This document shows positions 13,431 to 20,306 of a DNA stretch of 64,000 nucleotides, one piece after another. A program made the position numbers and the translations under genes. Source of the DNA: an uncultured Verrucomicrobiota bacterium (GTDB taxonomy: Bacteria > Verrucomicrobiota > Verrucomicrobiia > Opitutales > Intestinicryptomonadaceae); contig CASDUP010000008.1 of the NCBI GenBank assembly GCA_949283955.1, forward strand, positions 62,001 through 126,000. The letters run 5' to 3'. Position 1 is the first letter of the stretch. Each line of letters starts with the position of its first letter. The notes beneath the pieces are model-generated. The model did no database searches. It was given only the letters and a program-made list of their open reading frames with translations, and had not been told where the DNA came from.

Positions 13431-15005
13431 ATGAAACACGACGGTCAAAGCTTTGCATTTAGATTTAGACATAGGGCGATAATTTTATTACCCGCCCTGT
13501 TTTTTCCGATTTTATGTTCACAAGCGGCGCTTGAATTTAGAAGGGGGGAAGAAGGGCAGTCCGCATATTACAGCAGATCGTTTGAAGATCCTAACAACTG
13601 GACTGCAAACAGGGCAGGAGGCGCTTCAAACTATTCTGAAGCAATAGTCGATAGCGGAAGCTGGATAGGAGACTACTATAGCGGTTCGAGCACAACGGCG
13701 AAGGAGACACTTGCAAGCGTCGACTTAAGCGGTGTGATACTGCATGAAATTTACATAGGGCCGAATTCCGCCTACAATGGAAATGATGCCGTTGGAGAAA
13801 ACGGCAACGACGGTTTTTGCGAATTAAATTCCGACATACAAACATATAGATGGTTTGTGGGATACTACGGTAAAACAAACCCCACCAACTATGTAAATAC
13901 GGCGCTTGGGATAAAGGGAACAGGAACGATAACCATAGACAATTCATACGCTACAGGAACACTCATTGAAAAGCCCGCGCTTCAGACAACGTATGCGGGG
14001 AACGACTTTACCGTCGACGTGGATTTGGAATTGATGTGCGTGAAGAACACGTCTGGAGAAGACATCACAAACACGTTCGATTTAAATTCCACCTACAACA
14101 CCTATTTCAAGCAGGGGAACACCATTACGCTTACGAACAGCAAGACTCCGAAAGGCAGCGCTGCTGCGAGTAAAATCACAGAGTTCACGATACAAGTAGC
14201 TATTAACAGCGAAGAGGCCACGGGAAAAGTTTATATAGGGTCTCAAATTATAGCCGGAGCCTACCTGCATCTTCGCTCTACCGGAGCTTGGTCGACCAAT
14301 CCTGCTGAATATGGGGCAAAAATCCAGTTATGTGGAAACGTCACAAATTTCTACCAAACGCTTGGGCTATGGAGAAAGATAAGAGTAGAATTTAACATGC
14401 AAGACGGAGCTCTTGTTCTTCCCGAGGGTGGAATAGTTCACTTTGGATATTCGAACACTTTGGATTTGTTGGGAGAGAATCAAGTAAGCAGGACCGAATT
14501 TAGATTTACAAACGACGGAACCGCTACTCACGCCATTAATCTAAACGGCCATTCAATGGGTGTTTACGCCGATACTCCCTCTCTTCAAATTTCCAGTATG
14601 AATTTTTTAAAGAATACGGCAACTACGACAGGAGGAATATCTCTGACAATAGATTTTGGAGATAACGCGACTGACCAAGTATTTGCCTTTGGTTCGGCGA
14701 GCTCAACTTTGGACGGTTCTGACGAACCTTCCATTCTCATAAAAAATTTCAAAGAGGGAGACCGCTTTATAACGGAATTTGCCCTCGGAGAGGAATGGAT
14801 AGGAAACGCCGAAGATAACGGATTTATAACATTTGAAGGGTACGAGGACGGGTTCTATATCGTGGCAAGCCAGATAGACGATATAAGCGATGTCTATTAC
14901 GGAATGTACGAATACACGCTAAGCCCTGTTCCCGAGCCGGCTTGCATAGCGGGAATATTCGGAGCGCTTGCTTTGGCGTTTGCCGCAAGAAGCAGGAAGC
15001 GTTAA
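13431..15005 (+). CDS. PEP-CTERM sorting-domain protein, paralogue 2
   Basis: 524 residues, starting at an ATG with a GAAAGGA site. It is collinear with paralogue 1 over the whole mature chain: same mature N-terminus after Ser-Gln-Ala, same blocks (NDGFCELNSDIQTYRWFVG, YSNTLD-LGENQ), same PEP-CTERM tail (VPEPACIAGIFGALALAFAA, RSRKR). The signal peptides and the stretch before the tail differ most. The pair is a tandem duplication that includes the terminator, later diverged. Likely exported and sorted by exosortase; role unknown. Confidence 0.86.
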   Translation: MKHDGQSFAFRFRHRAIILLPALFFPILCSQAALEFRRGEEGQSAYYSRSFEDPNNWTANRAGGASNYSEAIVDSGSWIGDYYSGSSTTAKETLASVDLSGVILHEIYIGPNSAYNGNDAVGENGNDGFCELNSDIQTYRWFVGYYGKTNPTNYVNTALGIKGTGTITIDNSYATGTLIEKPALQTTYAGNDFTVDVDLELMCVKNTSGEDITNTFDLNSTYNTYFKQGNTITLTNSKTPKGSAAASKITEFTIQVAINSEEATGKVYIGSQIIAGAYLHLRSTGAWSTNPAEYGAKIQLCGNVTNFYQTLGLWRKIRVEFNMQDGALVLPEGGIVHFGYSNTLDLLGENQVSRTEFRFTNDGTATHAINLNGHSMGVYADTPSLQISSMNFLKNTATTTGGISLTIDFGDNATDQVFAFGSASSTLDGSDEPSILIKNFKEGDRFITEFALGEEWIGNAEDNGFITFEGYEDGFYIVASQIDDISDVYYGMYEYTLSPVPEPACIAGIFGALALAFAARSRKR

Positions 15006-18888: not shown

Positions 18889-19746
18889 CTATTCGGGGAG
18901 TTTTTGCTTCAAAACTTCTTGGGACATCTCGTAGGTTCCCACCGCCGTCACGGGACCCGTCATCGTGATGGAGAAGTCCTCCGCTATTTCTATAAGAAGC
19001 TTTCCTCCGGGCATGTGCACCGTTATTTTAGAGTCGCAAAGTCCGAGTTTGCGGGCGACCGAAGCGGCGGCGCTCGAACTGCTTCCCGACGCCAAAGTGT
19101 ATCCTGCGCCGCGCTCCCAAATCTCCACGCGGATATTGTTCCTGTCTATGACCTCCAAGAACTGCACGTTCGTTCTATTCGGGAACAGAGAGGTTTTGTT
19201 TTCTATAATTGGGCCGAGCTTCAGGGCGATATCCCTCGAAACTTTTTTCATCGGGAGAACGCAATGCGGATTTCCCACCGTGGCGCAGCAGTATTTGTAT
19301 TTTTTGCCGTCTAAGGGCAATTCGCGGTTGACCACTTCTCCCTTTTGACCCTTCACTGGAATGTCCGCCGCATCAAAGCTGACCTTTCCCATTTCAACCC
19401 TGACCATCGAACCCTTCTTCATGACGGTGCATTCTACGATTCCTCCAAGGGTTTCGACGCTGAAGGGGACATTTTCCTTTACCAATTTCTCGTCGAAAAG
19501 ATAGCGGGAGAAAATTCTGAGGCCGTTTCCGCTCTTTTCCGCTTCGGAGGCGTCGGGATTCAAAATCCTGAGCTTGAAATCGGCTTTTTTGCTCTTTTCC
19601 GGCCCGAATAAAATTCCGTCCGAACCGAGTCCGAAGTTGCGGTGGCAAATCTTTATCACTTTTTCCCCGGCGGGAATTTTAGGGCAATCTTTGGGCGACA
19701 AAACGAGATAATCGTTCCCGAGAGCGTGGTATTTCGAAAATTTCAT
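18889..19746 (-). CDS. dapF: Diaminopimelate epimerase homologue with both catalytic Cys replaced by Ser
   Basis: 285 residues, taking the ATG at 19746 (MKFSKYHALGNDYLVL aligns with the DapF N-terminus); the upstream open frame carries no domain. Family blocks are intact: NPDASEAE, GNGLR, VGNPHCV, ERGAG and TGPV. In DapF, two cysteines (Cys73 and Cys217 in E. coli numbering) act as the acid-base pair. Here both read Ser: Ser72 in EKSGNGLRIF (codon AGC) and Ser220 in YTLASGSSSS (codon TCG). The substitution is seen directly in the codons. Whether it still epimerises LL-DAP to meso-DAP for lysine and peptidoglycan, or does something else, cannot be told. The neighbouring tRNA genes are on the opposite strand. 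Confidence 0.9.
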   Translation of the reverse strand: MKFSKYHALGNDYLVLSPKDCPKIPAGEKVIKICHRNFGLGSDGILFGPEKSKKADFKLRILNPDASEAEKSGNGLRIFSRYLFDEKLVKENVPFSVETLGGIVECTVMKKGSMVRVEMGKVSFDAADIPVKGQKGEVVNRELPLDGKKYKYCCATVGNPHCVLPMKKVSRDIALKLGPIIENKTSLFPNRTNVQFLEVIDRNNIRVEIWERGAGYTLASGSSSSAAASVARKLGLCDSKITVHMPGGKLLIEIAEDFSITMTGPVTAVGTYEMSQEVLKQKLPE

Positions 19747-19834: not shown

Positions 19835-19907
19835 GGGGATGTAGCTCAGTTGGAAGAGCACCACAATGGCATTGTGGGGGTCGCCGGTTCGAACCCGACC
19901 ATCTCCA
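19835..19907 (+). tRNA. tRNA-Ala (GGC)
   Basis: Acceptor GGGGATG/CATCTCC includes the G3-U70 wobble, the alanine identity element. Anticodon loop ATGGCAT gives GGC. T arm GGTTCGAACCC-like. No CCA encoded. A weak candidate promoter (TTGACG at 19791-19796) lies upstream. Confidence 0.95.
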
Positions 19908-19921
19908 TTTTTTTGTGCGCC

Positions 19922-19992
19922 TCCCCGATGGTGTAATGGTAGCACAGATGATTTTGGTTCATCTAGTTGGGGTTCAAATCCCTATCGGGGAA
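19922..19992 (+). tRNA. tRNA-Gln (UUG)
   Basis: Acceptor TCCCCGA/TCGGGGA, anticodon loop TTTTGGT reading UUG, T loop GGTTCAAATCC. It lies 14 bases after tRNA-Ala and is presumably co-transcribed. No CCA encoded. Confidence 0.94.
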
Positions 19993-20306
19993 CGCCTCTT
20001 TGCGATGTTTTTTCGAGTACTAACGAAGAGAAAAGGGCGAAGAAATAGCGGGAGTAAGTTTTTTTGCATGCCTTTTTTTGCGTGCTTCTTTAGCGCTTTC
20101 TTCTTGCCTTGCAACATTTGGAGAAGGTCGGTTGCTTTCAGCATGCCTTCGTGTGTTTTTGCCCCGCAATTCCCCCTAAAAATTAGGGTGTTCTCAGGCA
20201 GAAATCAGAAAGCTTTGCGGGAAAATATTTTTACTTCGAAAAAATATTTTCGGGATATAGAGCGTTTTTTATCGGCGGGAATTTTTCCGGCAAAAATCCA
20301 AAGGAC
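19993..20306. other. Gene-free AT-rich stretch after the tRNA pair
   Basis: No protein or RNA gene recognised. It contains an inverted repeat CCCTAAAAATTAGGG near 20174-20188 and a longer one, GAAAATATTTTT with its complement, at 20221-20251 (6-base spacer). Neither has a T run fitting a standard terminator. Confidence 0.5.

Follow-up and report, generated by a model that had tools for sequence, protein, structure and literature searches.

The window examined here, a 64,000-nucleotide stretch of contig CASDUP010000008.1 from a verrucomicrobial genome, carries a homologue of DAP epimerase (DapF) with serine codons at both positions of the catalytic cysteines (Table 1). These replacements, Ser72 and Ser220, formed the core of the original prediction and are borne out by the codons read from the window. 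The thiol/thiolate pair of DapF, with one Cys per domain, is absent from the protein, its places being taken by the two serines. Its score on the TIGR00652 DapF profile is nevertheless 235.9 bits, above the cut-off of 114.65, and among solved structures the DAP epimerases of Arabidopsis and Anabaena are closest to it in sequence. The Cys-to-Ser mutants of DapF had been assigned to the Escherichia coli enzyme, an attribution that does not hold: the published mutants with structures, PDB entries 2q9h (C73S) and 2q9j (C217S), are those of Haemophilus influenzae DapF.

Table 1. Coordinates in the window of the DapF-like gene and of codons at or near its catalytic positions.
Feature	Position	Strand	Details
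Ser/Ser DapF-like gene, 285 aa, intact ORF	18889-19746	minus	ATG at 19746, TAG at 18889
Codon 72, AGC = Ser, first catalytic Cys position (EKSGNG)	19531-19533	minus	read directly from the window
Codon 220, TCG = Ser, second catalytic Cys position (ASGSS)	19087-19089	minus	read directly from the window
Codon 71, Lys, adjoins Ser72	19534-19536	minus	from group comparison; putative catalytic role
Codon 13, Tyr, near Asn11	19708-19710	minus	from group comparison; putative role
Codon 216, Tyr, four residues before Ser220	19099-19101	minus	from group comparison; putative role
Codon 223, Ser	19078-19080	minus	from group comparison; putative role

Close upstream of dapF, the opposite strand carries two tRNA genes, tRNA-Ala(GGC) at 19835-19907 and tRNA-Gln(TTG) at 19922-19993. 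Positions 13431-15005 of the window encode a 524-aa predicted exported protein with a C-terminal PEP-CTERM-like tail (VPEPACIAGIFGALALAFAARSRKR).

The AlphaFold2 model of the protein reaches a mean pLDDT of 95.3 and displays the two-domain fold of the family, with DAP epimerases as the best structural matches, mostly at TM-scores of 0.8-0.9. In this model, Ser72 directly precedes helix 73-85 and Ser220 directly precedes helix 221-233, so that both catalytic positions occupy the N-termini of helices, as in DapF.

The Ser/Ser state extends far beyond a single genome. The motifs EKSGNGLRIF ... WERGAGYTLASGSSSS, each with its serine, are found in nearly all DapF proteins of 54 relatives from the window's order. 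The state, whose spread the original prediction had proposed to check by alignment across the phylum, occurs throughout this verrucomicrobial order and further in Desulfobacterota, Planctomycetota, Armatimonadota, BRC1 and Cyanobacteria. Fourteen aligned Ser/Ser sequences (A1) served as the query against genome contigs, with a search pattern that asks for AEKSGNG or IWERG-GY and is thus biased to the Ser/Ser form; at least 584 places encode relatives, and the best 80 of these are all Ser/Ser, coming from Verrucomicrobiota, Planctomycetota, Desulfobacterota, other groups labelled deltaproteobacteria, BRC1, Armatimonadota and Cyanobacteria. A sample enriched for the Ser/Ser form yielded 155 distinct DapF sequences, comprising 131 Ser/Ser, 23 Cys/Cys, one Ser/Cys and no Cys/Ser. 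The single mixed case (L048, 244-1011) is a DapF homologue of strongly diverged sequence that combines Ser at the first catalytic position with Cys at the second; it comes from a 1.0 Mb genome of the window's order (G051).

Residue 72 is encoded by AGY in 102 and by TCN in 29 of the 131 Ser/Ser sequences, while residue 220 is encoded by TCN in 118 and by AGY in 13; the use of both codon classes at each position points to long-term selection for serine itself. In a tree of 160 sequences, a quick reconstruction with midpoint rooting only and several long branches (L048, L046), one branch (support 91) sets off the Ser/Ser rows and another (97) the Cys/Cys rows, with no mixing. The order-wide state, the single tree group and the invariant substrate site described below agree with the earlier proposal of a selected change, and comparison of the sequences strongly supports the view that the Ser/Ser state represents neither decay nor the oddity of one genome.

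Anabaena DapF binds its substrate through Asn13, Asn66, Asn77, Asn164, Asn197, Glu215, Arg216 and Thr226, together with the backbone amides at Gly76 and Gly225 (PMC12039745), and in Corynebacterium glutamicum DapF the exchange of the corresponding Asn, Glu, Arg and Thr for alanine almost abolishes activity (PMC5296763). The Ser/Ser group keeps the DAP-binding residues N11, N63, G73, N74, N159, N193, E211, R212, G221 and S222; across the 131 sequences these contacts are invariant except at position 222, which is Ser (97%) or Thr. Ser72 and Ser220 are serine in every member of the group.

A further set of residues separates the two forms. Position 71 is Lys in 98% of the Ser/Ser group, with Ile in about 2%, whereas it is Met in 100% of Cys/Cys sequences; position 13 is Tyr in 100% against Phe in 91%; position 216 is Tyr in 99%, with Asn in one member, against Glu, Ile or Val; and position 223 is Ser in 99% against Gly in 100%. 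Tyr6 (Met in the Cys/Cys form), Ile78, Ile209 and Gln195 also distinguish the group. Judging from their positions in the alignment, the group-specific residues that adjoin the catalytic positions could help to ionise a serine or relay protons to it. The same residues allow a different account, in which the protein is a true DAP epimerase but Lys71 and Tyr13 on one face and Tyr216 on the other move the proton, the serines only lining the site. The specificity of Lys71, Tyr13, Tyr216 and Ser223 to the group favours this account; however, both serines are invariant, stand at the helix N-termini where the thiols sit and are kept across AGY and TCN codons, and two of the proposed bases are themselves replaced in some members, as the exceptions at positions 71 and 216 indicate. 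We consider it unlikely, and transfer by the serine pair remains the preferred reading.

The genome that harbours the window contains the pathway on either side of the epimerase. It encodes an LL-DAP aminotransferase that scores 642 bits on NF004937 (cut-off 585) and a DAP-type MurE that bears the DNPR motif and scores 529 bits on NF001126 (cut-off 373), in answer to the search that the original prediction had suggested for a DapL aminotransferase and a MurE adding meso-DAP. TIGR03542 alone is misleading for DapL, as most genomes of the order fall below its cut-off, and NF004937 is the right model. Family searches of the assembly (1.65 Mb, 91% complete) detected neither Ddh nor a second DapF, and hence no Cys/Cys copy of the kind that might have explained the DAP supply. 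With the aminotransferase and the DAP-type MurE present and no Ddh or second DapF found, LL-DAP is made, and a need for meso-DAP, and hence for an epimerase, is to be expected. In two related genomes (L089, L092), the gene immediately upstream of the Ser/Ser dapF encodes an aminotransferase, whose family was confirmed by model for L089; across Ser/Ser loci, no conserved operon was found beyond this pairing. A LysA-like protein of the window's genome (L242:261-1511, C28) scores 261 bits, below the TIGR01048 cut-off of 297.9; the LysA-like decarboxylase of the order, a divergent LysA, scores 245-285 bits in nearly all members and exceeds that cut-off in 3 of 54.

Relatives in which the gene is lost or replaced amount to a natural experiment. 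In an evenly drawn sample of the phylum, 61 of the 70 genomes of the order bear the Ser/Ser signature. The nine others comprise five with Ddh (G003, G334, G335, G338, G340), three with Cys/Cys DapF (G268, G269, and G272 by its first motif only) and one, G143, in which neither DapF form nor Ddh was detected. Cys/Cys DapF stands in place of the Ser/Ser form in some lineages of the order, namely f8, f24 and several genera of f14. Outside the order sample, 22 of 30 genomes have one DapF only, of the Ser/Ser form; two of these 22 are complete chromosomes (Adhaeretor mobilis, CP070652). In none of the 30 does Ddh exceed its cut-off.

Ddh makes meso-DAP directly, in one step, so that the aminotransferase and the epimerase are no longer needed where it is present. 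At a completeness of 90% or more, the order is represented by 332 genomes, of which 27 yielded no DapF and 21 yielded Ddh above its cut-off; Ddh occurs in 11 of the 27 DapF-less genomes against 10 of the 305 with DapF (Fisher p=2.5e-8, uncorrected for relatedness). A one-contig genome of the window's genus, G010, gave no candidates for any family searched and was excluded as unsearchable. The DapF-less genomes with Ddh (G003, G009, G015, G191, G331, G334-G338, G340) fall in five genera (g1, g3, g66, g97, g99), for which the genus-level p is 0.002, and the pattern of DapF loss is partly due to shared ancestry. In four of these genera the DapF-bearing congeners have the Ser/Ser form or its signature (G002, G008; G017, G018; G192; G330), while in g99 the single DapF-bearing member, G333, has the Cys/Cys form and no Ddh. 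Within the window's family, dapL and dapF disappear together: all 11 DapF-bearing genomes have the aminotransferase, whereas the three without DapF lack it and all carry Ddh. Sixteen of the 332 genomes are without both DapF and Ddh, and incompleteness of metagenome-assembled genomes adds noise to such counts. Three f27 genomes of 0.9-1.0 Mb (G118, G119, G120) yielded no DapF, Ddh or NF004937 aminotransferase, their relatives G046 and G121 in f27 keep DapF, and dependence on a host or partner for DAP is possible in these three.

Both forms of DapF occur together in three cyanobacteria, one Armatimonadota, one Sedimentisphaerales and two deltaproteobacterial genomes, and the Ser/Ser protein may therefore have another role there. 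The cyanobacteria (L111, L122 and L126, from Fortiea, Aphanothece and Dulcicalothrix) possess the Ser/Ser gene and a canonical Cys/Cys dapF; Dulcicalothrix has a second, divergent Ser/Ser copy (L203), and the flanking genes are not conserved among the cyanobacterial loci.

Such co-occurrence fits the idea that the Ser/Ser protein binds DAP but catalyses some other reaction, meso-DAP being supplied by an unrecognised enzyme. The loss of both thiols points in the same direction, as do the single Cys-to-Ser mutants of the Cys/Cys racemase HisR, which lose most of their activity (PMC11602996). Against this, the gene is lost in the presence of Ddh, and within the order Cys/Cys DapF takes its place in some lineages. 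We know of no other DAP epimerase for the DapL route, which likewise weakens the idea, and altogether we regard it as improbable. A different substrate, one of the three options first put forward, is unlikely for a related reason: all DAP contacts are invariant, and relatives replace the gene by Cys/Cys DapF or Ddh. The option that another enzyme supplies meso-DAP finds no support in the window's genome, given the search results above, and holds for relatives that gained Ddh, which are those that tend to lose dapF. The remaining option, a Ser-Ser or serine-based mechanism acting on DAP, is the best supported of the three. Overall, the first interpretation is supported in part, and neither of the refuting conditions set out with it, a sequencing error at both codons or a second Cys/Cys dapF, was borne out.

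Still less probable is a cell wall built with LL-DAP, in which the Ser/Ser protein would persist as a residual or regulatory pseudoenzyme. In Opitutaceae, DAP was detected by GC/MS without resolution of isomers and TLC saw no DL-DAP (PMC5303756), and the LysA-like protein of the window's genome falls below its cut-off and may differ in specificity. These observations would suit an LL-DAP wall, but Ddh, which yields meso-DAP, stands in for the pathway in relatives, the MurE family is named for DAP ligation, although the name does not prove the isomer, and the invariant active site argues for catalysis. A sequencing error or a pseudogene has practically no chance of explaining the serines, because 131 distinct sequences, drawn from independent genomes, share the pair; the ORF is intact, the fold is confident and nothing speaks in its favour.

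Ser/Ser DapF, Cys/Cys DapF and Ddh fill one metabolic slot, as expected if Ser/Ser DapF is a working epimerase and hard to explain by a pseudoenzyme or another substrate. Sequence and comparative genomics establish the Ser/Ser state, the invariant DAP site, the pathway context, the dispensability of the gene beside Ddh and its exchange with the Cys/Cys form. Ser/Ser DapF very probably has DAP epimerase function, which is well supported by genomics and from which we infer the activity itself. The best explanation, which we hold to be likely, is a working DAP epimerase that uses the serine pair, probably helped by Lys71, Tyr13, Tyr216 and Ser223. That the serines are the actual proton-transfer pair is a somewhat less secure part of this explanation. 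The poor match of an unassisted serine hydroxyl to the known thiolate mechanism counts against it, as does the loss of activity in the HisR mutants; the DAP detected in Opitutaceae, its isomers unresolved, falls short of proof that these walls contain meso-DAP.

In the proposed scheme, LL-DAP aminotransferase would make LL-DAP, Ser/Ser DapF would invert one alpha carbon to give meso-DAP, and MurE would build meso-DAP into the cell wall. Ser72 and Ser220, each at a helix N-terminus, would replace the thiol/thiolate pair on the two faces of the active site; the alpha proton would most likely be abstracted by one serine and replaced from the opposite face by the other, with Lys71, Tyr13, Tyr216 and Ser223 tuning the pair or relaying protons. 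On balance, we lean towards the broader view that a Ser/Ser pair runs two-base proton transfer in a large natural family of cofactor-independent amino-acid epimerases, which had a single origin and took over from the thiol enzyme the part of sole DAP epimerase in a verrucomicrobial order and in members of several other phyla.

The usual account of how cofactor-independent racemases and epimerases work invokes a thiol/thiolate pair whose pKa values are tuned, and DapF is both a model case and an antibiotic target. This accepted mechanism does not predict a working Ser/Ser enzyme. A widespread thiol-free DapF, if true, would mean that sulphur is dispensable for the chemistry, would provide a natural set of compensating residues, and would be predicted to be insensitive to thiol reagents and thiol-directed probes such as aziridino-DAP. 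Annotation pipelines label Ser/Ser proteins as DapF and leave the difference unflagged. No published Ser/Ser DapF, epimerase with Ser on both faces or enzyme assay of a Ser/Ser member was found in the open-access literature.

Among the closest known systems is canonical DapF (TIGR00652). The window protein shares its fold, with TM-scores of 0.82-0.89 to the enzymes of Arabidopsis (3ejx), Anabaena (9mro), E. coli (4ijz) and H. influenzae (1bwz), as well as its profile, DAP-contacting residues, helix-capping catalytic positions and pathway context; it differs in having Ser for both Cys, in the group-specific residues Lys71, Tyr6, Tyr13, Tyr216, Ser223, Ile78, Ile209 and Gln195, and in its separate tree group. 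The O-ureidoserine and histidine racemases DcsC, CntK and HisR have the same fold (7vdy, TM-score 0.87) but are thiol-based and act on other substrates. The bifunctional DapF/glutamate racemase of Chlamydia (NF038284) is likewise a DapF homologue from a PVC bacterium, yet the window protein scores only 64.1 bits on its profile against a cut-off of 350. The proline racemase superfamily includes a Ser/Cys 4-hydroxyproline 2-epimerase and a Ser/Thr trans-3-hydroxyproline dehydratase, with a DapF-like fold and a catalytic Ser on one face (PMC4113996). Both set a precedent for serine catalysis on one face of the fold but act on other substrates; the former keeps one Cys, and the latter is a dehydratase; the window protein lies outside this superfamily by sequence, its best matches being DapF, and matches the solved members by fold only, at about 14-15% identity. 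As a DapF by profile and fold that lacks the thiol pair, the protein is best filed in a separate Ser/Ser group beside canonical DapF, a group that most likely works like DapF.
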